Below, one piece after another: positions 1 to 20,514 of a stretch of DNA of 23,894 nucleotides. The notes under the pieces are model-generated. The model had not been told where the DNA came from. It did not search any database and worked only from the letters and a program-made list of their open reading frames with translations. Origin of the DNA: a virus; IMG/VR virus record IMGVR_UViG_3300044638_001561, positions 1 to 23,894 of that record; one strand, 5' to 3'. Position 1 is the first letter of the stretch; each line of letters begins with the position of its first letter. The translations under genes were made by a program, and so were the position numbers.

Positions 1-1079
1 GAGAAGACATAGGCGCAGAAAAGAAGCCAGTTACGCCTACAGATAAAGTTAAAAAGAAAGCGGAATCCGCTACCCCCAAAGCTAAAGACATGTACTCAGA
101 GTACGACGAGTCTATGAAAGCTGCGCAAGAGGGCGCATTTTCTGATACTAAAAAACAATTAGTAGAACGAGAAAAAGCATTACCAACACTCCAAGCTGAA
201 GCCGATAAAAGTATCGCAACTCGCGTTGCCGATATGAGGCAGACTAATAAAGACCTTGGCATCAAAGATGAGCATACAAAAAAACTACGCGACTCTTTCG
301 AGCAACAGATAGCCTCTAGTGCGGAAGAATCTAAAGAAGAAGCTAAGCTACGCAAGGCGCAAGCATGGGCGGTCTTTGGCTCTACTCCGGGGCCTTTACT
401 CAAAGTAGGTTTGCAAGCGCTTAGCGGTTACATTGACGACAAGATTGCAGATGAGTCTAAACGCAAGAAGATGCAGAACGAACTTAAAAAGTCTTTGTAT
501 GAGTTAGACCGTTCTTCGTATTTAGAAAGTGTGGGCATGGCTAAAGAAGCTAGGGAACACCACCTAACTGCGTTTAATACGGTAAATAACTTACGCGATA
601 AAATAGCAGATGACCGCCGAGCTTTAGAAACAAAAGACTACGAATTTAAAAAAGGCGCGGCTGAAACTAAGCTCAAAGCTAAAGAACGTGAACAAGAAAG
701 AAAACTTACGTTAGAGGCCGCTAGGATTACTAAAGGCGGTAATTTAAACGAAGAAAAACTTGATACTAAGCAGACGCAATTAGCTAGAGCGGCGTTAGAA
801 GCCTTTGATAAAGGTAAAGATGGCGAAAAACTTTCTAATTATGAGAGTATGAAATCGCTTGCGCCTGAAGGATTTAAAGCTGTTGAAGCGGACTATAATC
901 GTTTAAAGAAAAAACAAGACGACCTCAAAATTGCATTAAAAGAATCTTACAGTCGTGCAAAAGGTTTAGACGCTACTCCTGCGCCTAGCGCTGCGCCTTC
1001 TGCGGCGGATATATCGTTTACTGCTAAAAAATATGGTATTACCGAGGACGAGGTTAAAAAACGGTTAGGGGTTAAATAA
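1..1079 (+). CDS. Charged helical virion-associated protein, 5' end outside window
   Basis: The reading frame is open from the first codon in frame (position 3) through the ATG at 90 to TAA at 1077-1079. There is no convincing Shine-Dalgarno before that ATG, so the gene very probably begins upstream; 358 codons are visible. The protein is rich in Lys, Glu and Ala and looks mostly helical or coiled-coil. A short less polar stretch (FGSTPGPLLKVGLQALSGY) starts about 95 residues after the internal ATG. The C-terminus, after a Pro/Ala linker, ends in FTAKKYGITEDEVKKRLG, a short HTH-like tail that I associate with phage virion proteins. It directly precedes and is coupled to the giant protein by a TAATG overlap, so the two are probably made together. 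By position it may be a second internal virion protein, similar in role to T7 gp15; this is inference from context only. Confidence 0.75.
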   Translation, partial: EDIGAEKKPVTPTDKVKKKAESATPKAKDMYSEYDESMKAAQEGAFSDTKKQLVEREKALPTLQAEADKSIATRVADMRQTNKDLGIKDEHTKKLRDSFEQQIASSAEESKEEAKLRKAQAWAVFGSTPGPLLKVGLQALSGYIDDKIADESKRKKMQNELKKSLYELDRSSYLESVGMAKEAREHHLTAFNTVNNLRDKIADDRRALETKDYEFKKGAAETKLKAKEREQERKLTLEAARITKGGNLNEEKLDTKQTQLARAALEAFDKGKDGEKLSNYESMKSLAPEGFKAVEADYNRLKKKQDDLKIALKESYSRAKGLDATPAPSAAPSAADISFTAKKYGITEDEVKKRLGVK

Positions 1080-4000
1080 TGCCCCGTGATCTTTTTGCTG
1101 AACAAGAAGAACGTAAAAAATCTGAACCTAAAGATTTGTTTGCGGAACGTGGTATATCCATTACCCCGGAAGCACCTGCCGAACCCGAAGGCAGCGACTT
1201 AATTCGTGGTTTTACTAATTATGGGCCTCAATTAAAAGAAACATTTGGCGGGGCTAAAGTACTAGCTGGTAAAGCGCTTGGCTCTGAAGCTCTGATGAAG
1301 AGCGGTATTGAATCTATGGAAGAGGCTAAGCACGCTCTTCGTTCTAAATCTAAACCTACTGACTCGTTTACTACCGCGCTTGATAAAGGTATGGGTGCCG
1401 TATTAACTGATTGGCTTCCATATCAAATAGGTTCTGGTGCAGCTAATATTCTTGAGTCTCTTGCTGTCATGGGCGCTGGCGCTGCGGTTGGTTCGGCTGT
1501 CGGCTCCACAGTTCCCGTTGTAGGTACAGGAGCAGGTGTAATTAGTGGTGGTATCTTTGGCCTTGTTGAAAAAGAACTTATAAAGACGGGCGTTAGAAAA
1601 GCCGCTAAAGAACTTCTTGAAAAAGAAGGCGAAGAAATAGCTAAGAAATTTGTAGAAGAAAAAGCCGCAATAGCGGCTAAAAAGGTAGCAAGAAATGTAG
1701 CAGCTACTAGCGCGCTTGCCGCTCAAGCCGGATTCCACGGTGCAGGTGAGACTACATCCCGTGCCGTTGAAGAAGCGCAACGCTTGGGTAAAGAGGCTAC
1801 TGACATTGAGATGGGGCGTGTAGTGCCTGCTGCCATCGTGCATGGTGTTGCTGAATTCATTGGAGATAAGATAGGTCTGGGCGCGTTTAATAAGCTTGAC
1901 CTCAACCAGAAGAATCTCTTATTAAACTTTGGTAAAAACTTAGTAGTAACAGGCACTAAAGAAGCGCCTGTTGAGGCGATTCAAAGCGCCGCCGAGCGTT
2001 TTGGTGCAGAGCTTTCTTTAACAGACGCTGAAGCAATTAAAGAATACGTTGATAGCGCAGCGGCTGCTTACGCCATGTCGGTTGTTCCTGCGGCTGGCGG
2101 TGCGGTTAAGAGCCGTGGTATGGCTGGTATAGAAGAACGCAATAAAGAACTTGAGAGCCAGTTCCGTCAAGACATACAACAAGAAGAAGCCGAGGCCGCC
2201 GCTGCTTCACAGAAAGCAGAAACCGCTGCACAAAATATAACTACGGTAGGAGTGCCTGATGCGCAGGGTAATGTAGCGCCGCTTCAGCCAATTAGTTTTG
2301 ACGTGATGGCACCTAATGAAATTGCCGCCGCTGAAGCCGCTACCGCTGCTCAAGATAAAGATGTAACGGCTGCTATCCCAGAGCAAACTGTTCCTAAAGA
2401 AAACCAAGCTATTACTGAATTAGTGGGTGATGCTTATGCAGAGCATGGCACCGGTAAAAAAGTATTGGAGACATTAAAACCTCAACTTGAGGCTATGGGC
2501 ATCCCTGTTGAGGAACATAAAAAGGTAATTGAAGAAGCGCGTACAGCTCTTAATATTCCTAGAAACGATACTAAAGAAGGGCGCGCTGCCATGCCTGTAT
2601 GGGCGCAACAGTGGCCTACGCAGAAGGAGTCGCTAAATGTCCCTACAACAATTAACGCAGCAGCAGATCAGTCTAGCATTACTGGCGCTCCACCAGCAGT
2701 GGGAGGAACCCCCACCGGAGCTAAAACATCTGACGTATCTGGAATGGTCGATACTGGAAGGGATGCTACAGCAGATAATGTGGCAAAAGCAGCACAGCCA
2801 GCTGCACTAACTGAAGACCAAGTAAAAGTTCATTACGACAACCTAATAGGTGAAGTTGCTAGTGCGCACAATCTTCAATTACCTTCTTGGGAAGAACTCA
2901 CTCCCGCAGAAAAAGAAGCCATAACTAAAGAGGCGGGAGAAGCCCAGATAACTAAAGGCATGACGCCGTCTAAGGGCGAGCAAAAAGTTAGTTTTATATC
3001 CCCCGCCATAGCTGCGATTTATAAATCGCGCATGGATGCTGCACGCAAAGAAGAAACAAAAGAAGTAGATCAAACCCCTACATGGGTAGTAGAAGGTTAT
3101 GAAGATGCGCGTGAAGGTTGGGAAACAGAAAACGAGTTAGCTAAAGAAACTGTTCGATGGAGCGATCTTAACGCTGACGAACGCGCTGTAGTAAATAATA
3201 TAGTTAAAAACGGAACGCAAGAAGAATTTGATAACGCGCTTGATACTTTGCATGAATACCGCAAAAGCAAACCTGAAAGCGGCGCGTCTTATTACGAAGT
3301 AAATCGTCAGATATATAACCGCGAACTCCCACGCTGGGAAGACTTAAACCTTGATGAGAAGAAAGCGTTCTTAACTGAACTTAAACCGGGCGGGGACTTT
3401 GTTCGTAAAGGGAAACAACGCCAACGTGTAGTATCCACCGAACAAGTGGATGCTGGATTTAAAGCTGTTGTTGAAAAAGTTAACGCGCGCCTCAAAGAAA
3501 AAGCCGAAGTAGAAACAAAGCAAGAACAAGAACAAAAAGGTAAGGCGCAGCGCGTTGCCAAAGAAGAGGAAGCCGCTGCCAAAGAAGAAGTTGAAGTAGG
3601 TAAAGAATTACCCGCGTTAGTTAAGATGATGCTAGGCGAAGGCGGCGTTAATAATGTGCTTGCTTATATTGCTAAGAAAGCTGGCGGTATACGCATTGGC
3701 AAGAAAGATTCCCCACGCTCTGAAGCTATACGCAACTATGAGAAACGCTACGGTGCGTTGTCACGCGCTATATTTAAGAACATAGCGTCGACTCTTAATA
3801 CAATCAACTTCTCTAAATCTAAAGTAGTTGTTGACCCAAAAGATAAAGTAATACAACAGCTACAAAAAGAAGGTAAGTTAGCGGCGTACGACCCTAAGAC
3901 AGATACGTTCTACTTTACCAAAGACGGCATGGATGAGATGACCGTCCTGCATGAGATTGTACACGCAGGCACAATTAAGATTCTCTACGCTTATAAGAAT

Positions 4001-7000
4001 AATCCAAGTAGCTTAACGCAGGAACAGCGTGCCGCCGCTGAACAAATTAATAAGGTGTATGAGTTTGCTAAAGGTAAGCTGTCTGGAAAATATCCAAACC
4101 AGATGGAGAACGTCTATGAGTTTGTTAGCTATGCGCTGACTGACCCGCGTTTCCAAGAAGAACTATCCCGCATCCAAGCGCCATCGCTTGCTAAGTACAC
4201 GTTAGCACCGAAGCCCGCTACTGCTGGAATGCAAAGTATTTGGTCGCACTTCACTAAAGTTTTAATGAAGCTGTATGGACTTACTAAAGCAGCGGCTAGA
4301 TTCTTTGAAATCAAACCCGACTTGTATGACGATGTAGCTAAAGCATTTGGCGGCGAGAAATACACTAAGCAAAAACTAGAAATAGACAAGACTGCGCAAC
4401 GGGAAGTTAATAACTATATTGCTAAAGAAGGTGATGTAGATACTAGCGCACGTTTAACTTTTGAATCAGTTAGCGGGCTGCGCGATACCGTTGCGCCTCG
4501 TTTAGAAGATAATTACCCTGAAGCATTTAGTGATACGTCTGACCAAGGCGTTGCGGATTTTGTAGAAACATATCTTAACAACAGAACATTTGCTGAAGAA
4601 GTAGATAAAACTGCTGCTGATACTTACAAGCAAGCCAAGATCGGTTTAACTAAACAAGCTGGCTTTGAAGGTAACGCGCTGCTTGAAGTTACTCAGGCGT
4701 TCCAAGGAATACTTGCCGCACCTGAAGCTGGCATAGACATTGAAGCTTTACCTGCTAGGAAGCCAAAGGCAGCGCCTACTACTGACCGTTCTTTAGAAGA
4801 ACTAGAGTCGGAGATGAAAACAGGCAAGCAACCTGCCGCACCTTCAAAAGTATGGAGTGCCGTACTGTCCGGTAAAACTGGCCCTTGGCTTGAAAAGAAA
4901 TTTGCTAACGACCGTGCGCCTATAAAACGCTGGCAGAAACAGTTGGCTGACGCCGGGCGCGTCATTGCGTATGGCGTGGGTATGAATAATATCTACGATC
5001 AGATTGTTCTGTCGTCTGGCAACGCTCACTACATATACACACAGTACGTACAAGCTGGCACAGAAGGTTTGCGCCAAGAGATAGCCGCCTATGCGGATAA
5101 AAATAAAATATCTGTAGAGAAAGCTTTGGAAAAGCTGGCGATGTATTCAATAGCGCGTCACTTGCCTGAACGCCGTGAAGTGTTGTACATGAGAGAAGTG
5201 CCGTTAAGTTCTTCTCCTATTATTAAATTTACCAACGCGCAAGGCCAAGCTTCAAACATATCCCCTGCGCAAATGAGGGATGAAATATTTAAAGAGCTTG
5301 ATACTAATAAGAATCTTACAGAAGCTGAAATAAAATATTTTAATAAAACTCTGCGTAGTATTACGTTCGACAAGAGCCAGACATTCCTTGACCCTAAAGT
5401 AAAGGGCAAAGACTTAGCCAATATAAACAGCAGCAAGTACAACGTGGCTGGTGCATTCTCTGACGCTGAAGTTAAAACCATGATGGATGCGTACAACGCT
5501 AACAAAGCGGAAGTGCAGCCTATATTTGACGTGGTAGATAAACTAAACAAGACTACACTCAAGCTAAACAAAATGTCCAATTACATGTCGCCTTACGCTG
5601 ACAATTGGATTAAGTTCTATGGCTGGGAAAACTACGTTCCACTTAAAGGTAAGCACTTGTCGGATGAAACCGACATGTTGAATTTTGACAGCCGCCGCTT
5701 GGGAGGTGAGTTGCAAGAGAAGGTGCATACCTTTGAAGGTAACCAAGAGATACCAGACAACCCTGTTCTTCAGGTGATGGCTGACGCCGCGTTAGCGTCT
5801 ATGCGTGTTGGACGTAAGAATATTACTGAAACTATCTATAACTCTTCTAAGAAAAGCAAAAACAATCCTAACGGCTCGGGGCTATTACCGACTGCCGAAG
5901 TCATGAAGGTTGTGGATTTTGAAGACCGCCGCGATCAGAAGTTTTTGGACTCATTGGGCGGCGAAACTAAAATCTTCCACTACATGCCAGACGGTAAGGT
6001 TGCGGTTATAAGTATTAAAGATAAAAATTTGTTAGAGGCTATACGCAGGTCTTACAGAGAAATTAACCCTTTCATAGACTTCCTTAACAAAGCCACTGGA
6101 GTTGTTGGTCAATTCCATACTCGATTTAACATTGCATTTGCTCCTATTAACTTCGCCCGTGACGTGCTTACTAACGCGTTTACTATTGGCGCGGACATGG
6201 GGCCGCTAAAAGCCTTTAACTATTTAGGCTCTGTCGCTAAAGATGTAGCTACAGGAAAGCTTTGGAAAACAGTTAGATTTAATTATCTATATTCCAAAGG
6301 TGAAGTAGGCGCGCTACGCACTCTTGCTGCAAAAGACCAATACTATAAAGACTTGCTTGATCTAACTAAAACAGGCGGTCGCGTGTCTTGGTTAGCGGGT
6401 ATTGCTAACAAAGGGCAGTTTAATGAACTGAACAAAGAAGTTGGCACGACCGGTATCTTGTCGCCTAAACAAGCAATTAAATTCTTTGACGGTTACATTG
6501 AAGCATTTGAAATGGCGTCACGCGTTGCTGCTTTCCGCATTGCTAAACAAACAGAACTTGCTGAATTAAAGCGTCAGAACATAACCGGTGCTGAAGCTGA
6601 AAAAACTGCTAACACTAAGGCCGCGTCTTACACTAAAGAACTTGCTAACTTTGAACAGTCTGGCGAGTGGGGTAAGACGATGGGCGCGTGGTTCATGTTC
6701 TTCCGTCCGTCTGCCACAGGCGCAGTAAGAGCTATAGATGCAGTTGCTCCAGCAATTATGAATGCTGAACAAGCTAGGATGAGGCAACCACAGTTTGCTG
6801 AAGCCGCTATGCTGCGTGAAAAGTTAAAAGATAAATCGATCACGGGCATTACTCGCACTAAGATGGAAGCGAAGTTAAAGGACGCGGAAAAAGCTATACA
6901 GAACTTTGATGAGAAGTTTGCTAAGAATAAACAGAACGCGCAAGTTATGGTTGCGTGTCTAATTGGTATGGGGTATTTGACCTACCAGATGGCTCATGCA

Positions 7001-7972
7001 ATGGCAGATGATGACGACAACAAAGATGAGCTAGGACGCAATAAGATTGCTACTGACGACATGTCACGTTGGACTAAGTTTGCGCGCTTCTATATACCCG
7101 GCATTGAGCGTCCTCTTCAGATACCTTGGGGTTTCGGTCTTGGTGCGTTCGCCGCTATGGGTGCGCAGATAGGCGCTATGTTCAATGGCAATATTAAGCC
7201 GGGCGAGTCTTTAAGTAACATGGTTCCTATTGTTCTCGACTCTTTCTTGCCGTTGCCTGTTTCGCGTATTCCTGTAGGAGAGAAGCCGCTAGAGTACGCC
7301 ATAGATTCTGCGTTACCGTCCATCATTAGGCCGTTTGTAGAATACGCTATGAATGTAGACGCGCTAGGCCGTCAGATATATAACAATCGTCAGTCACGGT
7401 TTGGAGAAGCTTATACTGGTGGGGACAATATTCCTGAGTTATATAAAAAAGCGGCGCGCTGGTGGTTTGATACTACTGGCAATGACGTAAGCCCCAACTC
7501 TTTATATTTCTTCGCCAACTCATACGCAGACGGTGCGTCTAGAGTAATGCACAACGGCACAAATATATCGCTTTGGTTGGCAGGTAAAAAAGACTTCGAC
7601 CCTAAAACAGACACAATATTCTTTGATAGTTTTGTTGGCTCTAAGTCTAACTACGATGCCCGTCAGTGGCAGCGCATTGAAGATGATTTAAAAGAGCGTG
7701 AGCAAAAAATAAATATGCTGAAGAATAATAAGCCAGATCAATATCTAGCTTATCTATCTAAAAACCCGTTAGACGAAATGCTTGCTGACATGTACAACCA
7801 TGACGTTAACGGGCACTTAAAAGACTTGCGGGAACAAGCTAACAAGTACCGCGCTATGGATACCCTATCGCCAAAAGAACGTAAAGAGATTGTAGATGCC
7901 ATAGTTCTACAACAAAACTTTGAAAAATATCGGCTTGTACAAATGTACAAAGCGTTCGGAGTCAAACCCTAG
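1079..7972 (+). CDS. Giant polyvalent internal virion protein with zincin motif and LPD38-like region
   Basis: This 2297-residue protein starts at an ATG one base into the upstream stop, with AGGGG about 8 nt before it. Visible parts in order: a duplicated short motif PRDLFAE/PKDLFAE at residues 2-8 and 17-23; a Gly/Ala-rich hydrophobic patch at about 128-163; Ala/Glu-rich helices; a zinc-protease-like HEIVH at 958-962 with a possible third ligand Glu in YEFVSYALTDP (about 1014); long helical regions; a segment at about 1664-1702 containing FAPINFARDVLTNAF; a hydrophobic helix at about 1954-1976 followed by an acidic run; and a PWGFGLGAF block near 2013-2024. The last three resemble the LPD38 'large polyvalent protein' region of phage and conjugative-element proteins thought to enter the host with DNA. 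It ends the virion module. Ejection and protease activity are inferences; the metallopeptidase call rests on the HExxH and its spacing. Confidence 0.8.
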   Translation: MPRDLFAEQEERKKSEPKDLFAERGISITPEAPAEPEGSDLIRGFTNYGPQLKETFGGAKVLAGKALGSEALMKSGIESMEEAKHALRSKSKPTDSFTTALDKGMGAVLTDWLPYQIGSGAANILESLAVMGAGAAVGSAVGSTVPVVGTGAGVISGGIFGLVEKELIKTGVRKAAKELLEKEGEEIAKKFVEEKAAIAAKKVARNVAATSALAAQAGFHGAGETTSRAVEEAQRLGKEATDIEMGRVVPAAIVHGVAEFIGDKIGLGAFNKLDLNQKNLLLNFGKNLVVTGTKEAPVEAIQSAAERFGAELSLTDAEAIKEYVDSAAAAYAMSVVPAAGGAVKSRGMAGIEERNKELESQFRQDIQQEEAEAAAASQKAETAAQNITTVGVPDAQGNVAPLQPISFDVMAPNEIAAAEAATAAQDKDVTAAIPEQTVPKENQAITELVGDAYAEHGTGKKVLETLKPQLEAMGIPVEEHKKVIEEARTALNIPRNDTKEGRAAMPVWAQQWPTQKESLNVPTTINAAADQSSITGAPPAVGGTPTGAKTSDVSGMVDTGRDATADNVAKAAQPAALTEDQVKVHYDNLIGEVASAHNLQLPSWEELTPAEKEAITKEAGEAQITKGMTPSKGEQKVSFISPAIAAIYKSRMDAARKEETKEVDQTPTWVVEGYEDAREGWETENELAKETVRWSDLNADERAVVNNIVKNGTQEEFDNALDTLHEYRKSKPESGASYYEVNRQIYNRELPRWEDLNLDEKKAFLTELKPGGDFVRKGKQRQRVVSTEQVDAGFKAVVEKVNARLKEKAEVETKQEQEQKGKAQRVAKEEEAAAKEEVEVGKELPALVKMMLGEGGVNNVLAYIAKKAGGIRIGKKDSPRSEAIRNYEKRYGALSRAIFKNIASTLNTINFSKSKVVVDPKDKVIQQLQKEGKLAAYDPKTDTFYFTKDGMDEMTVLHEIVHAGTIKILYAYKNNPSSLTQEQRAAAEQINKVYEFAKGKLSGKYPNQMENVYEFVSYALTDPRFQEELSRIQAPSLAKYTLAPKPATAGMQSIWSHFTKVLMKLYGLTKAAARFFEIKPDLYDDVAKAFGGEKYTKQKLEIDKTAQREVNNYIAKEGDVDTSARLTFESVSGLRDTVAPRLEDNYPEAFSDTSDQGVADFVETYLNNRTFAEEVDKTAADTYKQAKIGLTKQAGFEGNALLEVTQAFQGILAAPEAGIDIEALPARKPKAAPTTDRSLEELESEMKTGKQPAAPSKVWSAVLSGKTGPWLEKKFANDRAPIKRWQKQLADAGRVIAYGVGMNNIYDQIVLSSGNAHYIYTQYVQAGTEGLRQEIAAYADKNKISVEKALEKLAMYSIARHLPERREVLYMREVPLSSSPIIKFTNAQGQASNISPAQMRDEIFKELDTNKNLTEAEIKYFNKTLRSITFDKSQTFLDPKVKGKDLANINSSKYNVAGAFSDAEVKTMMDAYNANKAEVQPIFDVVDKLNKTTLKLNKMSNYMSPYADNWIKFYGWENYVPLKGKHLSDETDMLNFDSRRLGGELQEKVHTFEGNQEIPDNPVLQVMADAALASMRVGRKNITETIYNSSKKSKNNPNGSGLLPTAEVMKVVDFEDRRDQKFLDSLGGETKIFHYMPDGKVAVISIKDKNLLEAIRRSYREINPFIDFLNKATGVVGQFHTRFNIAFAPINFARDVLTNAFTIGADMGPLKAFNYLGSVAKDVATGKLWKTVRFNYLYSKGEVGALRTLAAKDQYYKDLLDLTKTGGRVSWLAGIANKGQFNELNKEVGTTGILSPKQAIKFFDGYIEAFEMASRVAAFRIAKQTELAELKRQNITGAEAEKTANTKAASYTKELANFEQSGEWGKTMGAWFMFFRPSATGAVRAIDAVAPAIMNAEQARMRQPQFAEAAMLREKLKDKSITGITRTKMEAKLKDAEKAIQNFDEKFAKNKQNAQVMVACLIGMGYLTYQMAHAMADDDDNKDELGRNKIATDDMSRWTKFARFYIPGIERPLQIPWGFGLGAFAAMGAQIGAMFNGNIKPGESLSNMVPIVLDSFLPLPVSRIPVGEKPLEYAIDSALPSIIRPFVEYAMNVDALGRQIYNNRQSRFGEAYTGGDNIPELYKKAARWWFDTTGNDVSPNSLYFFANSYADGASRVMHNGTNISLWLAGKKDFDPKTDTIFFDSFVGSKSNYDARQWQRIEDDLKEREQKINMLKNNKPDQYLAYLSKNPLDEMLADMYNHDVNGHLKDLREQANKYRAMDTLSPKERKEIVDAIVLQQNFEKYRLVQMYKAFGVKP

Positions 7973-14557: not shown

Positions 14558-14812
14558 TTACTTCATTGATCCGTCGGGCTTACGTTTGAAGCTACGATTC
14601 TTGGCGGGGGATTCTAAACGAACTCCGTCTGCATTGCTGCCGCCTTTAGATAACGCTTTGACGTGGGCAACATCTTTACCCTTTCGGCTAACGCCTTTCT
14701 TGTCCATCTCCCGCCTAGCCTTCTGGCGTTCCATACGGTTATCGTGTTCGCCCCGAGCCAACTCTTGTTGGTATTCTTTCTTATAGGGTCTTGGTGTCTT
14801 CGTGTATGCCAT
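14558..14812 (-). CDS. Small basic HNH-like protein
   Basis: This 84-residue, strongly basic protein has the core KGKDVAHVKALSKGGSN (D47, H50, N60) followed by a conserved N72 in KNRSFKR. The order and spacing resemble the short phage HNH-endonuclease family (DVDHxxPxSKGG...NxRSF). There are no cysteines, and Ala replaces the usual Asp before the His, so activity is uncertain. It starts with GAGGT five nt upstream, supplied by the tail of the preceding 53-aa gene (coupling copy C). The gene is last before the helicase promoter. Confidence 0.65.
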   Translation of the reverse strand: MAYTKTPRPYKKEYQQELARGEHDNRMERQKARREMDKKGVSRKGKDVAHVKALSKGGSNADGVRLESPAKNRSFKRKPDGSMK

Positions 14813-14942
14813 GTTTTACCTCGTGAATTTTGTCGTTCTGTTCTTTATTACGGTATGTATACAAGCTTCTAGCCAAAGCTTCAGTTAATTCTTTCTTTGT
14901 TTGTTGCATCGATTCTGCTAGTGCTTTGGTGTACTCGTTCAT
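14781..14942 (-). CDS. 53-aa small protein
   Basis: The frame runs from ATG 14942 to TAA 14781-14783. AAGGGA lies about 8 nt upstream and the previous gene ends 20 nt away. The product (MNEYTKALAES...) is charged and helical, and its end QNDKIHEVK lies in the repeated junction cassette that also provides the Shine-Dalgarno of the HNH-like gene. The gene extends 32 nt into that next gene. No homologous domain is recognised. The repeat pattern and Shine-Dalgarno support translation, but the function is unknown. Confidence 0.5.
   Translation of the reverse strand: MNEYTKALAESMQQTKKELTEALARSLYTYRNKEQNDKIHEVKHGIHEDTKTL
14810..14840 (-). repeat. Junction cassette family 1, copy C
   Basis: This 31-nt segment encodes NDKIHEVK of the 53-aa protein and carries GAGGT and the ATG of the HNH-like gene. 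By eye it differs from copy A at about 8 of 31 positions. Confidence 0.55.
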
Positions 14943-14962
14943 TAGTTAATCCCTTATCCTTC

Positions 14963-15139
14963 CTACCCAACTTCTGTAGTTTGCTCCAAACTTTCTTCAC
15001 CAATCTCTTCGTTTCTTCTTTTGTTGGCGCAGTGTATCTCTGCGTTAAGTTCTTTTGGGCGTCGGTATTCATGTTTAAAAATATCATCTAATATTTTAAG
15101 CGTTTCTGTTTTAAACGCGCTCGCTGTCAGTATCGGCAT
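14963..15139 (-). CDS. 58-aa small acidic protein
   Basis: ATG 15139 to TAG 14963-14965, with GGAG and a 7-nt spacer (junction cassette copy A). The product begins MPILTASAFKTETLKILDD and ends EQTTEVG. A longer alternative frame (15087-14881, starting MIFLNMNTDA) covers the same DNA but has no Shine-Dalgarno and would collide with the next gene. I therefore prefer this one. The sequence suggests a helical, charged peptide; no family is recognised. Confidence 0.5.
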   Translation of the reverse strand: MPILTASAFKTETLKILDDIFKHEYRRPKELNAEIHCANKRRNEEIGEESLEQTTEVG

Positions 15140-15299
15140 CTTTTACTCCGTGTATCTGATCGTTGTGTATATTCACTTGGTTAAACTCAACAAAACTGTC
15201 ATAGTCCTTAGTAATATTTAACCATATAGTTCTTTCATGGTTAGGCACAAAATTAGGCATCCTCGGGTCAGTCCAACCGTAAGAATAACTATTTTTCAT
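15111..15299 (-). CDS. 62-aa small protein
   Basis: ATG at 15299 lies 7 nt after GGAG in junction cassette copy B. The product MKNSYSYGWTDPRMPNF... has many aromatic and Asn residues and ends with IHNDQIHGVKD plus a short tail. The end overlaps the following 58-aa gene by 29 nt. The same C-terminal peptide ends the upstream 65-aa protein, although their N-terminal parts are unrelated. Function unknown; the start is well supported. Confidence 0.6.
   Translation of the reverse strand: MKNSYSYGWTDPRMPNFVPNHERTIWLNITKDYDSFVEFNQVNIHNDQIHGVKDADTDSERV
15137..15167 (-). repeat. Junction cassette family 1, copy A
   Basis: This 31-nt segment encodes NDQIHGVKD of the 62-aa protein and includes GGAG and the ATG of the 58-aa gene. 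It differs from copy B at three positions. The similarity extends some 20 nt further into the upstream gene (GAGTTTAA...CCA). Confidence 0.7.
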
Positions 15300-15486
15300 C
15301 TTTCACTCCGTGTATCTCATCGTTATGGACTTCATGGTTTAAACTCCAAGAAGACGCCGCTCGTATATGCGCGGGTTCCCATTTGGAAGCGGCTTCCTCA
15401 TTCATGCCTCCGTGCGTTATAGCCCTTTCCGGCATCATCGCCGACCGCACGCGCCCTTTTACTTTCATAAGTTTTATTATGTTCAT
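15289..15486 (-). CDS. 65-aa small protein following the RecB-like nuclease
   Basis: The frame starts at ATG 15486, overlapping the nuclease stop (ATGA). Internal ATGs at residues 7 and 28 are possible starts, and none has an ideal Shine-Dalgarno. The N-terminal 20 residues are basic. The middle (MNEEAASKWEPAHIRAA) is followed by the shared tail VHNDEIHGVKD, which carries the Shine-Dalgarno and start of the next gene. No domain is recognised. Confidence 0.5.
   Translation of the reverse strand: MNIIKLMKVKGRVRSAMMPERAITHGGMNEEAASKWEPAHIRAASSWSLNHEVHNDEIHGVKDEK
15297..15327 (-). repeat. Junction cassette family 1, copy B
   Basis: This 31-nt segment encodes NDEIHGVKD of the 65-aa protein, with GGAG then ATG of the 62-aa gene. 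It is 160 nt from copy A and almost identical to it. Confidence 0.7.
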
Positions 15487-16139
15487 CTACTTCTGTGATG
15501 CTCACATGTAGTAACAGGACACCATCCACATAGCGGCGTAGGATTCATCTGCCATGTGTCATTCTGATAGGACAACTGCAAACGCTCTAGGTCTGGTGTG
15601 AAGTTAGTCCAAAGCGTCTCCATGTTGTCTCGCACGTACTCTTCCGGTATGAAGTTATTATGCAATATAAACATCAGTCCAGCCTTGACCCGATTAACTT
15701 CTGGAAAGTGCGCGAACGTCATCAGTGCCATCAGTCGTAACTGTTTTAGATCAGGGTACTTGTCGCTACCTGTCTTGTAGTCAACGATGAACGCTGTGTC
15801 TCCTTCTATAACCATGAAGTCAACGATACCGCGCACCCAATAACCTTTACCCCATGAACAAGGCTGCTTGTTCTCGTCTAGCGCCATTCGATGCTCGATA
15901 TACCGCGTACCGTCGATCTCCAACAGCGGGTCAACCATACTCGCAAACCGCTTGTAGTTGTGGGGTAACGCTGTACCGTCCTTCGCGTAGTTCTCCAACG
16001 CGCTATGTACATCTGTACCGTAACGCATCTGCTGTGTAGGAATCGTTTCATATTTTTTAAGTACTTTGACTTCTTGATATTGTTTAGGGCAATTAATGTA
16101 TTGTTTAAGACTTGAGAAAGACCACTTGACTGTATCCAT
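15483..16139 (-). CDS. PD-(D/E)XK nuclease, RecB/Cas4-like, with four-cysteine cluster
   Basis: This 218-residue protein has the RecB-family order: YGTDVHSALE (H45), RGIVDFMV (D107), FIVDYKTG (D120, K122) and a downstream Gln in LKQLRLMA (Q133). One cysteine near the N-terminus (C17) and three near the C-terminus (C204, C207, C212) match the C...CxxCx4C layout of iron-sulfur nucleases such as Cas4 and AddB. The start has AAAGG 7 nt upstream and lies 14 nt after the polymerase stop. It probably processes DNA ends during phage replication or recombination. The iron-sulfur cluster is inferred from spacing. No CRISPR array or cas1/cas2 is present, so it is not a CRISPR gene here. Confidence 0.82.
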   Translation of the reverse strand: MDTVKWSFSSLKQYINCPKQYQEVKVLKKYETIPTQQMRYGTDVHSALENYAKDGTALPHNYKRFASMVDPLLEIDGTRYIEHRMALDENKQPCSWGKGYWVRGIVDFMVIEGDTAFIVDYKTGSDKYPDLKQLRLMALMTFAHFPEVNRVKAGLMFILHNNFIPEEYVRDNMETLWTNFTPDLERLQLSYQNDTWQMNPTPLCGWCPVTTCEHHRSR

Positions 16140-16153
16140 TGGGAACCTTTAAG

Positions 16154-18031
16154 TTAACATTCTCCATAACTATGCCCATATTTCGCCTCACATGCAACAG
16201 GCAGAGTCTTGCCCCAATCGGGTGGTGTGGACATCTTCTCAATGATGAACTCCATAGCGCGCTCGCGCTCAATCTCTGGAACGACGATCACTGCTGCGTC
16301 ATGCACAGTCAACACGACTCGATAGCGTTCATTGATAGCCAACATCTGTTCGCCTACAACTATTCTAGCCAACGCTTGGACTACGTTCTCAACGACTGCC
16401 CCACCCCAAATACTTATCTCACCACGCCTAGACTTGTACTTGTACTGGGACTTCTCTTCTTCTGTATCCAACCGTAGGTTGGGGTAACGAATCATTAGAC
16501 CATTGGGTAGCTCGATGCCTTCCTTCTTAACCCGCAACGCTTTGTGTTCGCCCAAGTAATACTCTTTACTCTTAGCATTCCAACTACATAGAGCGTCCAA
16601 TACGTTATCGGAGTCTTTCCATAGCTGAATAATATCGCTGTTAACATCTCGATAAAGTTTAACTATGTTCTGACACTCCTCATCATCTATCACAGCCCCG
16701 GGCGGTTGTGTCTTTAGCGTGTGCTGTAACTTTCTCCAGCCAGTGCCATACCCTAGCCCCAGCACGCATGTCTTGCCAACAAATCTCTCAACAGGGTCAG
16801 TCTTAGTTATGGTTCGGTTGTAGACTTTGGAAGCAAAGATTGAATATACGTCTTCACCTGAAGCGAACTGTCGTACAACATCGTCTTGTCCTGCCAACCA
16901 AGCCAACACCCTTGCTTCAATTTGGGAGGAATCACAGTTAATAACCACGCTTCCTCTGGGCGCGAGTACCGCATTTTTAAGTGTCTTCTTCTTCTTATCT
17001 CGACTAGGAAGGTTTTGGAAATTAACCTTATCACTACCGCTCCACCTTCCTGTGTGTGCGCCATAATATTTAAGGGGGATGGGGAGTAGCCCTCTATTTC
17101 TTTTTCCGATGTCAATGAATCGTGCGATGCGAGATTCTTCCAAAGTTGATTTAGTTCCAAGTCTGACAGCGCAGAGCTGCTGAACGAGTGGATTCTCATG
17201 TTCCGAAAGTGAAATAAACCCTTCGTCGTTTTTTGCCAGTGCAAAAGTTTCTCTTCCTGTAACTGGGCTAATCTTGAGTGGGGCAAATACTGGTGGGTCA
17301 AGCTTACTAAGTAGTTCAGCAAACTGCTTATTGCTTGCCAACTTTTTCCTAACAGCTTCTTCATCATCACATTTCAACTCTTCTTTTAGGGTGGCTAGGA
17401 GATCGTTCTTCTCTTTCTTCAAGTCTTCTAAGCGTTGTACTAGCAACGCATCATCTACCTCAAATCCCGGGATTATGAACATCCTTAGCGTCATATCAAT
17501 AAGTTTTGCCTCATCCTCTGGGAACTCTGGCCCCATGATGCTGAACAGTTTATGTGTCAGCTCACAGTCATTCTTGCAATACTCGCCGTACTGTTTAAGA
17601 TCAGTCGCCGTGAAGTCTTCAAGTCGCTTACCCTTGGCATCATCAACCTCTGTTCCTTTCTTACCTATCTCATAGCGCTCAGCCAACGCTTTCAAAGAAC
17701 CGCCTGAATCAACACCGTGGAGCGCGCGTGCCATGCTCAGTGTGTCCAAGTAGAAGGCGGGGTACACCCCGAACCGCCAACCAAGAATCGCACCATCAAA
17801 GATAGTGTTATGGCATAGCAATGCTGAGTCCGTCCAATCAGTAAGACCCTCTAGGTGTTTCTTTAACACTTCATGCGTACCTGAAAGCCAATACGCCGGT
17901 GCATCATCGATCTTGATACCTACACCTATCTCTTGAAATTCTTTTCCACGAATGTATTCTTCAGTCGTCAGCGTTCTAAACCCAAAGTCGTTTGAGTAGT
18001 ATGTCTCGAAATCTAATGTGATTAAACTCAC
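16154..18031 (-). CDS. Family A DNA polymerase with 3'-5' exonuclease
   Basis: This 625-residue replicative polymerase starts at GTG 18031 with AAGGA 8 nt upstream, overlapping the preceding stop (GTGA). The exonuclease domain shows DFET (D7, E9), CHNTIFDGAI (N75, D79) and YCKND (Y151, D155). The polymerase domain shows GRWSG...NFQNLPS (about 328-343), motif A CDSSQIEARVLAW (D367, E372), motif B RFVGKTCVLGLGYG (K420, Y428) and motif C VLTVHDAAV (H577, D578). Motif C reads HDA rather than HDE. All main catalytic aspartates are present. No 5'-3' exonuclease domain is present, as usual for phage enzymes. With the primase-helicase it forms the replisome core. Confidence 0.93.
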   Translation of the reverse strand: MSLITLDFETYYSNDFGFRTLTTEEYIRGKEFQEIGVGIKIDDAPAYWLSGTHEVLKKHLEGLTDWTDSALLCHNTIFDGAILGWRFGVYPAFYLDTLSMARALHGVDSGGSLKALAERYEIGKKGTEVDDAKGKRLEDFTATDLKQYGEYCKNDCELTHKLFSIMGPEFPEDEAKLIDMTLRMFIIPGFEVDDALLVQRLEDLKKEKNDLLATLKEELKCDDEEAVRKKLASNKQFAELLSKLDPPVFAPLKISPVTGRETFALAKNDEGFISLSEHENPLVQQLCAVRLGTKSTLEESRIARFIDIGKRNRGLLPIPLKYYGAHTGRWSGSDKVNFQNLPSRDKKKKTLKNAVLAPRGSVVINCDSSQIEARVLAWLAGQDDVVRQFASGEDVYSIFASKVYNRTITKTDPVERFVGKTCVLGLGYGTGWRKLQHTLKTQPPGAVIDDEECQNIVKLYRDVNSDIIQLWKDSDNVLDALCSWNAKSKEYYLGEHKALRVKKEGIELPNGLMIRYPNLRLDTEEEKSQYKYKSRRGEISIWGGAVVENVVQALARIVVGEQMLAINERYRVVLTVHDAAVIVVPEIERERAMEFIIEKMSTPPDWGKTLPVACEAKYGHSYGEC

Positions 18032-18183
18032 TTATCTTTTCCTTGTGCTTGATGAACTTCTTCGGCACGTAGCCTACTATGTTTTAATAAGTGTTCTTTC
18101 ATGTCTCTTTTAAATTTAGCGTTGCTTACCTGTACAGTCTTGGCTAATCGCGCGTTTGCTTGTGTTCTAGCTGCTTGTCTCAT
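18028..18183 (-). CDS. 51-aa basic small protein coupled to the polymerase
   Basis: ATG 18183 to TGA 18028-18030, with GGAGGG 7-8 nt upstream. The product MRQAARTQANARLAKTVQ... is basic and helical, ending QGKDK. Its stop overlaps the GTG of the polymerase (GTGA), so translation is probably coupled. No domain is recognised. The strong Shine-Dalgarno makes translation likely. Confidence 0.7.
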   Translation of the reverse strand: MRQAARTQANARLAKTVQVSNAKFKRDMKEHLLKHSRLRAEEVHQAQGKDK

Positions 18184-18345
18184 TTATTTACCCTCCGCTT
18201 GTTCGCGTAGTTTCTTTATTTCCTCCGCCGCTTCCTGACATAGCCCTGAGTAAAAAGCATTTGCCCTCATAGCCGTTTCAAAGTTCGCTGGATAGAACTT
18301 CCACGGCTCATTCAGTACATCAACGATGTCATACTTGGGGTTCAT
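18184..18345 (-). CDS. 53-aa small protein
   Basis: ATG 18345 to TAA 18184-18186. GGAGG lies 8 nt upstream, within the end of the preceding gene. The product begins MNPKYDIVDVLNEPWKFYP, and its C-terminal half (NAFYSGLCQEAAEEIKKLRE) is helical. The TAA abuts the ATG of the next gene (TAAATG). Function unknown. Confidence 0.7.
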   Translation of the reverse strand: MNPKYDIVDVLNEPWKFYPANFETAMRANAFYSGLCQEAAEEIKKLREQAEGK

Positions 18346-18685
18346 TGTTTTTTCCTCCATCGTATATATTGCTTCGCCAAAGAGTAACGCTAGGCATGTG
18401 GTTGTGAGATTGTTCTGGCGACACTTTTTGCATTGGGTGTATCCATCCCATGATACCTAAAGCTCTTACACCAGAAACCCATACGTTCGGGTGCAACTCT
18501 GCGGGACGCGCTAAACCATGCTGATGGCAAAACGATCTGAACTCATCGCCACGCACGTAAGGCTTGGACGTTAATAGTTTTTCTGCGTATTCCAGATACT
18601 CTTCTACAAATTCTGGGGAACTGCTGTTCGCTTTCTTCCAACACTTGTCTGCTAACTCAAGCGCGTTTTTCATTCGATCACTCAT
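18329..18685 (-). CDS. 118-aa hypothetical protein with winged-helix-like C-terminal half
   Basis: The start at 18685 overlaps the previous stop (ATGA) and has AGAGGAG 8 nt upstream. The first 50 residues are helical (ALELADKCWKKA, VEEYLEYAEKLL). Residues about 57-110 (VRGDEFRSFCHQHGLARPAE, NVWVSGVRALGIMGWIHPM, SHNHMPSVTLWRS) resemble the small winged-helix protein that phages and prophages encode near replication genes. This resemblance is by eye and the function is unproven. Confidence 0.65.
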   Translation of the reverse strand: MSDRMKNALELADKCWKKANSSSPEFVEEYLEYAEKLLTSKPYVRGDEFRSFCHQHGLARPAELHPNVWVSGVRALGIMGWIHPMQKVSPEQSHNHMPSVTLWRSNIYDGGKNNEPQV

Positions 18686-18828
18686 GTGTTTTTCTCCTCT
18701 GCTTCTAAAACGCGCAAGTCATTAGCGGCATCAGATACGCCATGCCAATCTCCCCTCGCTATCATCACACGCATGTACTCAATTAAAATCAGACGTTGTG
18801 TATCTAAATCATTGTAATTGCTATCCAT
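18682..18828 (-). CDS. 48-aa conserved phage small protein (DWHGVSDAANDLRxLEA)
   Basis: ATG 18828 to TGA 18682-18684. It starts within junction cassette family 2, which gives it AAAGGAG 7 nt upstream. The product contains LIEYMRVMIARGDWHGVSDA and NDLRVLEAE, a pattern I recall from many small phage and prophage proteins of unknown function. It overlaps both neighbours, consistent with coupled translation. Confidence 0.7.
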   Translation of the reverse strand: MDSNYNDLDTQRLILIEYMRVMIARGDWHGVSDAANDLRVLEAEEKNT

Positions 18829-19033
18829 TGTTCTTCTCCTTTAGCTTGGCTTCAATTGCTAAATAAAATGCAAACCAATTTTTACTTTCTATGTCTCCAC
18901 CAAGCGTTGCAAAATCACACCCTATGTCATCTACTTCATCATCCGTTAACGCAACCCATTCTCGCTTCGGCTCCCACCCTAGCTGCGTAGCGATACGCTT
19001 AGCCATTGATTTGTCTATGACAGGGTCACCCAT
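18821..19033 (-). CDS. 70-aa REWxxLTDDE-type small protein
   Basis: The start at 19033 is set by AAAGGAG in junction cassette copy 2. The protein has KREWVALTDDEV at 23-34, a motif shared with two upstream neighbours, and ends EAKLKEKNNG, the same tail as the 113-aa neighbour. The stop overlaps the next start by 8 nt. Similar small proteins occur in betaproteobacterial phages (family memory, not checked). Function unknown. Confidence 0.7.
   Translation of the reverse strand: MGDPVIDKSMAKRIATQLGWEPKREWVALTDDEVDDIGCDFATLGGDIESKNWFAFYLAIEAKLKEKNNG
18825..18852 (-). repeat. Junction cassette family 2, copy 1
   Basis: This 28-nt segment encodes AKLKEKNNG at the end of the 70-aa protein and carries AAAGGAG and the ATG of the 48-aa gene. 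It is identical to copy 2 over the whole length. Confidence 0.75.
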
Positions 19034-19367
19034 TGTTCTTCTCCTTTAGCTTGGCTTGTAATGTTTGTAGCAGTTCTAAATCGTTTGCATAAGCCATATC
19101 TGCTAAGTCTAGTAATTCCTCATCCGTCAGCCCTACCCATTCGCGCTCTGGAACCATTCTTTTACCGTCAGACACACGTTTTACCCTGCCTGCGTTCCAA
19201 TCTTGATAAAACGCGGCTTCGTAATCTGTTCCCCGCAACACCGGCTCCGGTTCAGGTTGCTCAAGTCGGGCGCGGAGGGTTTCAATGGTGTCGCTGTAAA
19301 TTTCCTTAGCATCGCCAACATAAGTCAACGCCTCAAGCGCCGCTTTCATCAGTTCTTTATCAGTCAT
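19026..19367 (-). CDS. 113-aa REWVGLTDEE-type protein
   Basis: The start at 19367 follows GAGGAAG in junction cassette copy 3. The N-terminal MTDKELMKAALEALTYVG and LRARLEQPEPEPV form a helix plus Gln/Pro/Glu linker common in phage and prophage small proteins. A second part has REWVGLTDEELLDLAD (75-90), and the tail QAKLKEKNNG matches the downstream paralogue. It looks modular: a helical head, a linker, then the REW domain. Function unknown. Confidence 0.7.
   Translation of the reverse strand: MTDKELMKAALEALTYVGDAKEIYSDTIETLRARLEQPEPEPVLRGTDYEAAFYQDWNAGRVKRVSDGKRMVPEREWVGLTDEELLDLADMAYANDLELLQTLQAKLKEKNNG
19030..19057 (-). repeat. Junction cassette family 2, copy 2
   Basis: This 28-nt segment encodes AKLKEKNNG of the 113-aa protein and provides AAAGGAG and the ATG of the 70-aa gene. 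It is identical to copy 1, 205 nt away. Confidence 0.75.
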
Positions 19368-19876
19368 TGGTTTTTCTTCCTCAAGTGTGCGTCCACTGCT
19401 CGCAGTACGCCCTTGCCTAGCTCACCCAGACCTAACTCATTACCCCAGAAATATAAATCAGCATAAGTCAAGCCCCGCCATTCGCGCTGTGGTGGGGCGT
19501 TGTCAATCCCGCACAGTTTCGGCTTGTCAATACAATTAGTGCCGCCTTTTCCTAAGCAATAATAGCCACACACAGGACAGCTTTCCTCTGTGTATTTCTT
19601 TTCCTCCGGTTCAGGCTGCGCTTCTGCATCCATCAACCGAATGCCTTGACTTGTAACCAACTGCGTCAGTTCCTCAATACGCTTTGCCATGCGTTGCTGT
19701 TCTTCAACCATCACAGCCATTGCGTCCCAATCAGGGTTGAATTCGTTTTGCTGCGGTGGGGCGGTGTACAGCGGTACTTTATCCATCTTCACTATTGTTG
19801 GCGTTTCCCATTTAATAGGCGTTGCCCATTCAAGTGCGCGTTTTTCTACGTTGATGTACGCTACTGGCTCATTCAT
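19364..19876 (-). CDS. 170-aa modular accessory protein with Cys cluster and REW motif
   Basis: The start at 19876 overlaps the previous stop (ATGA) with GGAGGAG just upstream. Order of parts: EPVAYINVEKRALEW...DKVPLYTAPPQ (3-42), a cassette recognisable from many proteobacterial phage proteins; a helix (55-80); the linker AQPEPEEK; a Cys-rich segment (C100, C103, C107, C115, C122) with CPVCGYYCLG, probably metal-binding; and APPQREWRGLTYADLY (127-142). It ends DAHLRKKNQ, the family 2 tail. It appears to be built from interchangeable small modules. Function unknown. Confidence 0.7.
   Translation of the reverse strand: MNEPVAYINVEKRALEWATPIKWETPTIVKMDKVPLYTAPPQQNEFNPDWDAMAVMVEEQQRMAKRIEELTQLVTSQGIRLMDAEAQPEPEEKKYTEESCPVCGYYCLGKGGTNCIDKPKLCGIDNAPPQREWRGLTYADLYFWGNELGLGELGKGVLRAVDAHLRKKNQ
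19365..19390 (-). repeat. Junction cassette family 2, copy 3 (divergent)
   Basis: It encodes AHLRKKNQ of the 170-aa protein, with GAGGAAG and then the ATG of the 113-aa gene. The layout is the same as copies 1-2 but the sequence is diverged. Confidence 0.5.
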
Positions 19877-20103
19877 AGCTCCTCCCCATTCTTCTCGACT
19901 TCTTTGTTTAAGTTGTACAACTTCTCTTGTCCTGCGCCTTTGAAGTACATGGGATTAAATTCTTTTGCATCAATCCAACCTTTCCTTCCGTCACCCATTA
20001 ATTCCACGAGAATACGATCACCGTCAATCTCAATAATCGTGCAGTTGTTAACAGGTGTAGTGCCGCCAAACCAACCTGTGTACCCAACCACAACGCCTTT
20101 CAT
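19873..20103 (-). CDS. 76-aa beta-rich small protein
   Basis: The start at 20103 lies in the GAATGA overlap with the previous stop, with AAGGGGG just upstream. The N-terminal two thirds (VVVGYTGWFGG, CTIIEIDGDRILVELM, GRKGWIDAKEF) suggest a small SH3-like beta barrel; the end is charged and helical. No named family is assigned. Function unknown. Confidence 0.65.
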   Translation of the reverse strand: MKGVVVGYTGWFGGTTPVNNCTIIEIDGDRILVELMGDGRKGWIDAKEFNPMYFKGAGQEKLYNLNKEVEKNGEEL

Positions 20104-20297
20104 TCCTGCCCCCTTGCTTTCATCATCGCGTCAGCCATTTTGTAAGAAGATTTGGCTATGCGTTCAGGCCAATCAATTTCCCATCCTTGACTGCTAGCTT
20201 CTTGCGCGTACACAGAGTAAATTGCTTGCATAGCCTTCGCCGCAAAGTAGTCCCTTAGTTCCATACCTTCGCTTCTATGATTTGGAAATGCTTTCAT
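20100..20297 (-). CDS. 65-aa conserved small protein (GMELRDYFAAKAM type)
   Basis: The start at 20297 is fixed by AAGGAG in junction cassette copy 4. The protein carries GMELRDYFAAKAMQA (11-25), a tryptophan-containing middle and a C-terminal SYKMADAMMKAR. This is a very common pattern among small phage and prophage proteins (GMTLRDYFAAxA...ADAMLxAR), whose role is not known to me. Confidence 0.75.
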   Translation of the reverse strand: MKAFPNHRSEGMELRDYFAAKAMQAIYSVYAQEASSQGWEIDWPERIAKSSYKMADAMMKARGQE

Positions 20298-20514
20298 CGT
20301 TCTTCTCCTTCAATTTTTTAATCTCGTCAAGTAAATCGCTTATGATCTTTAAATGTTCTTTATGACGCGCTTCCATTACGCCTACTACCCTATCAAACTC
20401 TAACTGCCATTGGTTCATCTTGTTGGTGAGAAGTTTTGCTTGATACCAAACGTAATCTGCTGTTATACCTTCAACTCGATTCACACTTGCCATGTCTTCA
20501 ATAAACTTATCCAT
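20275..20514 (-). CDS. 79-aa coiled-coil small protein
   Basis: I place the start at ATG 20514 (MDKFIEDMASV), which overlaps the previous TAA (TAATG) and has AGAGGAG 6 nt upstream. An upstream GTG at 20532 would read through that Shine-Dalgarno as codons. The C-terminal half (FDRVVGVMEARHKEHLKIIS, LLDEIKKLKEKN) is a long charged helix, likely coiled-coil. Function unknown. Confidence 0.65.
   Translation of the reverse strand: MDKFIEDMASVNRVEGITADYVWYQAKLLTNKMNQWQLEFDRVVGVMEARHKEHLKIISDLLDEIKKLKEKNDESISKS
20295..20316 (-). repeat. Junction cassette family 2, copy 4
   Basis: It encodes KLKEKND near the end of the 79-aa coiled-coil protein and provides AAGGAG and the ATG of the 65-aa gene. Here the upstream frame continues a few codons past the ATG. 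Confidence 0.55.

Follow-up and report, generated by a model that had tools for sequence, protein, structure and literature searches.

Between 18.7 and 20.5 kb of the window (the whole stretch analysed here, 23,894 nt of the IMG/VR virus record IMGVR_UViG_3300044638_001561), small genes on the minus strand are joined by a short recurrent sequence that ends one protein and starts the next. What is this sequence, and do phages exchange genes at it? The original prediction described a junction cassette, consisting of a KLKEKNNG tail, a Shine-Dalgarno sequence and an ATG, and proposed that the accessory region grows by recombination at such coupling sites. We find this reading largely right, except that the unit proves to be a mobile C-terminal module, the end of which also serves as the junction boundary.

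Repeated junctions in the small-gene operon

The sequence AAGCCAAGCTAAAGGAGAAGAACAATGG is present exactly twice, both times on the minus strand, at 18825–18852 (tail copy 1) and 19030–19057 (tail copy 2). The copies are identical at 28 of 28 nt, whereas the chance expectation for an exact 28-nt repeat is zero (100 shuffles). As predicted, they link three consecutive minus-strand genes. Copy 2 comprises the end of gene B (113 aa; 19026–19367), a Shine-Dalgarno sequence and the ATG of gene A (70 aa; 18821–19033). Copy 1 comprises the end of gene A (KLKEKNNG), a Shine-Dalgarno sequence and the ATG of g1 (48 aa; 18682–18828). The genes overlap by 8 nt at each junction (ATGGGTGA, ATGGATAG). The small gene g1 has a tail on both sides, its own end (EEKNT; 18682–18699, minus strand) forming an additional tail, GAGGAGAAAAACACATGA, that overlaps the next gene by 4 nt. 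A homologue of g1 in locus L305 ends in IKEKNT with AAGGAGAAGAACACATGA. An open frame of 2297 aa occupies the plus strand at 1079–7972, running opposite to the operon.

Two further copies had been proposed as diverged members with the layout kept, and only the first of them holds up as a firm member. At copy 3 (19364–19390, minus strand), the end of gene C (170 aa; 19364–19876, minus strand; last residues VDAHLRKKNQ) overlaps the start of gene B by 4 nt, so that the layout is retained with different bases. It is counted as a family member because gene C has the same C-terminal module as A and B. Copy 4 (20295–20311, minus strand) was the third site found in a search with a 17-nt core, with two mismatches (15/17), and it lies inside the end of gene F, at the start of gene E. 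Gene F is without the module, and its counterpart in locus L286 has a natural end (DEIKELKKEKE, then stop) without a KEKN tail. Following this comparison we dropped copy 4 as a firm member; it is doubtful and, given the L286 counterpart, may be a look-alike. The alignment to L285, the nearest relative (polymerase 98% identical), breaks at 20308, within copy 4.

These 28 nt terminate a longer module common to A, B and C, whose upstream REW.GLT block is repeated in all three with 72–77% DNA identity. We rejected a recent tandem duplication of whole genes as the origin of the repeat, as A and B can be aligned only over the C-terminal module.

A C-terminal module ends in the tail

A C-terminal module of about 43 aa closes with the tail in genes A–C; it is made up of REWVGLTDEE (block 1), a variable middle of varying length and AIEAKLKEKN. 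The module spans 18821–18967 in gene A, 19026–19148 in gene B and, in diverged form, 19364–19489 in gene C. Its first block forms the DNA repeat family D1, at 18932–18970 (REWVALTDDE), 19113–19151 (REWVGLTDEE) and 19454–19492 (REWRGLTYAD) in A, B and C, respectively, all on the minus strand. The relatedness of A and B is confined to the C-terminal ~45 residues (local score 97 versus a shuffle maximum of 49). The similarity between B and C is weaker (score 52, with shuffles averaging 30 and reaching 55); gene C was among the profile seeds, and its membership rests mainly on the D1 repeat. The cassette was thus not the stand-alone unit first proposed, because in genes A–C the tail ends a domain that spreads as a unit.

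When genes A, B and C were used to seed a profile, it matched 339 ORFs in about 200 fetched loci, and 323 of 330 profile matches end at the protein C-terminus. The module occurs in hundreds of IMG/VR contigs and is nearly absent from public phage records: annotated phages searched at the DNA level with the region gave no match, and at the protein level only 1–4 uncultured phages matched. Pfam, PHROGs and NCBIfam gave no significant match over the module, the best weak hits being phrog_35213 (E = 0.016) and phrog_24238 (E = 0.035). It is also found in ten bacterial contigs belonging to nine metagenome-assembled genomes, mostly of betaproteobacteria, with one labelled Armatimonadetes. A Cohnella match (L212), of a 13-residue segment only, was disregarded. 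In the predicted structure of protein B, whose overall fold is of low confidence (pTM 0.37), helices are placed in the module at residues 82–91 and 96–111, and the module is probably two-helix. Our guess would be that it binds a common partner.

The N-terminal part of gene B (MTDKELMKAALEAL..LRARLEQPEPEP; 19148–19367) is itself a recurrent module, and that of gene C (PVAY...PLYTAPPQ; 19490–19876) also resembles one. Across module proteins, a single linked cluster takes in 126 of 214 N-terminal parts, which gives these proteins the look of mosaics built from several small modules.

One could read these features as an ordinary small C-terminal domain having been spread by duplication and horizontal transfer. 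The domain would require KLKEKN, codon choice would have fitted the ribosome-binding site to it, and breakpoints would sit at gene ends only through the loss of recombinants that break genes. That the tail is mostly the end of a true module speaks for this explanation, which we follow through the results below.

Start signals and codon choice

The tail consensus, of about 18–32 nt, is (GAAGCCAARCT)AAAGGAGAAGAAC followed by ACATGA or AATGGNTGA. We compared 228 non-redundant module genes, from loci not fetched by the DNA tail pattern, with control genes of the same loci; the loci fetched by that pattern (L082–L201) were excluded from the coupling, codon and breakpoint statistics. The next start codon lies at the stop in 96% of module genes versus 75% of small same-strand controls, and a Shine-Dalgarno sequence is present at the tail in 89% versus 50%. 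Overlaps of 4 nt (59% versus 32%) and of 8 nt (25% versus 6%) are both more frequent, together accounting for 84% of module genes and 38% of controls. The junctions thus have the two marks of coupled genes, a start that overlaps or adjoins the upstream stop and a Shine-Dalgarno sequence. Only 9 of the 228 module genes are without a coupled start, and several of the nine still have AAGGAG.

Codon choice supports the predicted triple use of the same bases as protein tail, Shine-Dalgarno sequence and start. Lys-Glu is encoded as AAG-GAG at 159 of 186 occurrences in the tail versus 9 of 117 elsewhere in the same ORFs. Control genes likewise show a raised share of AAGGAG at their ends, in 94 of 225 terminal Lys-Glu codon pairs. 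A few genes (L014, L033 and L280) keep KLKEKN with codons, such as AAAGAA, that give no Shine-Dalgarno sequence, so selection on these residues also exists at the protein level, as a spreading domain that requires them would have it. Synonymous codons are also fixed beyond background in the GLTD of block 1 (GGG 86%, CTG 81%, ACG 72% and GAT 96%) and in the GAA and GCC upstream of the Shine-Dalgarno sequence. Block 1 contains no start signal, so coupling leaves its synonymous conservation unaccounted for. Conservation in block 1 and GAAGCC might come from recent common descent by exchange or from some DNA constraint.

Tail and module between unrelated genes

Module genes adjoin 65 N-terminal and 129 downstream protein clusters, with 150 combinations among 203 genes (single-linkage clustering). 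Of 76 pairs of modules from different contigs whose middles are nearly identical, 63 are flanked on both sides by unrelated DNA. In such pairs, identity is at background no more than 1–2 codons past the start of the next gene, and at the upstream border it is lost about 12 nt before the conserved Trp.

Tails are also found on genes that lack the module, 48 of them in 31 families (strict criteria; the count includes loci fetched by the tail pattern), which speaks against the spread of a domain as the whole explanation. Canonical tails lie directly 5' of homologues of a PD-(D/E)XK nuclease gene that is present in the window (L334:6345, L338:5066 and L359:3340), so the genes to which tails are coupled include ones for replication or recombination.

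Alignment breakpoints at the tail

The original prediction had proposed mapping recombination breakpoints and expected them to cluster in the cassettes, and this expectation was borne out in part. L285 aligns with about 92% identity up to 18842, inside tail copy 1. Genes A, B, C and D and the end of gene E (18843–20228, minus strand) are missing from L285, with about 80 nt in their place; its gene E homologue ends in DAMMEARKEKNNG, fused to the tail, and g1 follows. On the aligned sequences, this case suggests that the tail was acquired directly by recombination. In L286, a different module gene, ending in KLKEKNT, precedes the homologue of the gene at 18184–18360. Homologues of g1 come after different module genes in L297 and L305, and L299 and L300 have the same downstream gene behind different module genes.

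Gene E (20100–20297) matches phrog_2201 (E = 3e-20); many relatives retain its N-terminal ELRDYFAAKAMQ stretch but vary at the gene end and in the neighbours. Elsewhere in the window, the exonuclease–polymerase block (15482–18034) is a constant core with variable genes on either side, and alignments to most polA relatives stop at 15482–15511 and 18030–18042.

Among alignments of at least 150 nt that reach a tail, 82% break there, versus 41% at coupled junctions within 2.5 kb; a conserved sequence extends alignments up to itself and so sharpens apparent breaks. Over all loci, the within-locus mean break fraction is 0.73 at tails versus 0.45 at coupled junctions (p = 0.0002). In the polA group, whose loci were fetched without regard to the module, alignments of at least 150 nt give 0.80, against 0.32 at the coupled junctions nearby (within-locus permutation, p = 0.0002), and 0.68 versus 0.19 for at least 300 nt (n = 14 and 90). 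The excess over all loci is present for alignments of at least 120, 150 or 200 nt. At 300 nt or more there is no tail excess over all loci (0.29 versus 0.23, p = 0.30), and it is confined to the polA group, with its 14 tail junctions. Ordinary gene junctions are also favoured over random sites (0.36 versus 0.11; random positions, 5–11%), so selection for intact genes accounts for part of the pattern.

Pairs of phages that share a downstream gene give a second view. Where both carry a tail before it, the upstream sequence is unrelated in 35 of 43 pairs, versus 429 of 1061 at other junctions, and identity in the tail pairs extends to about 32 nt before the start and is random beyond. L007 and L064 are identical from AAGGAG onward and have unrelated upstream DNA. 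Among the 156 partners in breaks at a tail with a shared downstream side, an ordinary junction is present in 73 and a tail in 66, so much of the exchange needs no homology between tails.

These data bear on the spread of an ordinary domain as an explanation. It would account for breakpoints favouring all gene junctions, as well as for the module ends and the KLKEKN residues kept in other codons. Against it stand the tails without modules in 31 families, the within-locus excess over neighbouring coupled junctions, and pairs such as L007 and L064 that are identical from AAGGAG on with unrelated DNA before it. We regard it as unlikely, though a serious competitor.

Convergence on a strong ribosome-binding site, with AAGGAG and an A-rich spacer as the best start signal for the hosts that happens to read KEKN in frame 0, would explain why AAGGAG is raised at control gene ends too, and an A-rich spacer is plausible for initiation. 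However, in non-module genes the AARAAY spacer after AGGAG depends on frame (18% in frame, 2% and 7% out of frame). Even in the polA-group loci, AAGAACAC is far more common than any other 8-nt spacer from AGGAG to ATG (18 of 62), and conservation reaches upstream to GAAGCC, beyond any ribosome contact. Convergence is thus very improbable. A dedicated mobile element or site-specific recombinase that acts on block 1 and the tail and moves the module with its variable middle is hardly credible: it would suit the conserved–hypervariable–conserved layout, the synonymous conservation in both blocks and the identical modules with sharp borders in unrelated contexts, but the tail is asymmetric, exchange between tail and non-tail junctions is common, and no recombinase gene was noticed linked to modules, although without a systematic search.

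Discussion

We consider it probable, from the sequence comparisons above, that the tail is a frame-preserving recombination boundary that also couples translation, and that many tails end a mobile C-terminal module. One stretch carries the final residues of the protein before it (KLKEKN-T or KLKEKN-NG), the Shine-Dalgarno sequence (AAGGAG) and the next start, with a 4- or 8-nt overlap. The ~43-aa module would transfer between genes and phages as a unit. Recombination between two tails, over roughly 16–32 nt of identical or slightly diverged homology, would exchange the gene on either side (step 1). The upstream stop would stay in frame, and the new downstream gene would gain a coupled ribosome-binding site (step 2). 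In the simplest account, tails recombine with one another or with any gene end, and in both cases the products would be strongly retained, because the tail brings stop, Shine-Dalgarno sequence and start together. We infer that the overlaps couple translation in the cell and that homologous recombination is the process at work. Lambda Red recombines diverged DNA efficiently (PMC2327257), so an annealing recombinase or host functions could carry out exchange at tails; of the window genes tested, none was recognised as a single-strand-annealing recombinase.

The generality of this mode of growth had been argued from the presence of two unrelated cassette families in one operon, an argument that proved weak. 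The first family, at 14770–15340 on the minus strand, is made up of successive small genes whose HNDxIHGVKD tails are combined with GGAG and ATG, and the L285 and L286 alignments both break here. We rejected the idea that it is equally widespread, having found it in only four IMG/VR stretches (one the L285 contig, one with two copies). Generality rests instead on the spread of the KLKEKN-tail family itself.

The original work on boundary sequences was reportedly done on lambdoid phages. The tail resembles such sequences in being short, conserved and common to the borders of otherwise unrelated, exchangeable genes, with breakpoints within it. Short conserved boundary (linker) sequences have been proposed as sites of homologous recombination underlying phage mosaicism, although they could not be found at most mosaic borders (PMC3029335). 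The tail differs from them in being coding, as it combines the upstream C-terminus with a Shine-Dalgarno sequence and a start codon, and in its presence at hundreds of junctions that join unrelated genes.

Start-Associated Sequences (SAS) of Cluster K mycobacteriophages are 13-bp repeats, GGGATAGGAGCCC, found mainly before genes with gaps of >50 bp (PMC3203893). Like the tail, they are repeated in one orientation, with an AGGAG core a few bases before the starts of non-structural genes of different families. In contrast, the tail consensus is AAAGGAGAAGAAC rather than the 13-bp GGGATAGGAGCCC, and the typical tail has a 4- or 8-nt overlap (84% of junctions at module genes) in place of a >50-bp gap. 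The tail also encodes KLKEKN and coincides with breakpoints, whereas no conserved protein tail is described for SAS.

Translational coupling by termination–reinitiation at overlapping genes is a familiar phenomenon (PMC6728339, PMC10666635). The tail junctions share with those genes the 4-nt (ATGA) overlaps and the common direction. They differ in that one coupling sequence is reused between unrelated genes, whereas the known cases are gene pairs in general. In the literature searched, with incomplete coverage of subscription papers, we found no description of the tail or the module.

It is possible, though rather unlikely, that the recombination boundary is also a selected adapter, a "splice site" for operons. 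Freshwater betaproteobacterial phages would then keep a common boundary that preserves the frame and binds the ribosome, so that any captured gene could be inserted between any two others and expressed at once, and the hypervariable middle of the module would be diversified by recombination between its two conserved blocks.

The assembly of mosaic accessory regions in phages is a long-standing question, and the tail offers an abundant and recognisable boundary with which to address it. A junction that carries its own stop, Shine-Dalgarno sequence and start shows why exchanges there would be viable, and the boundary idea becomes directly testable on hundreds of public contigs. The module, an uncatalogued C-terminal module common in freshwater phages, is useful for their annotation.
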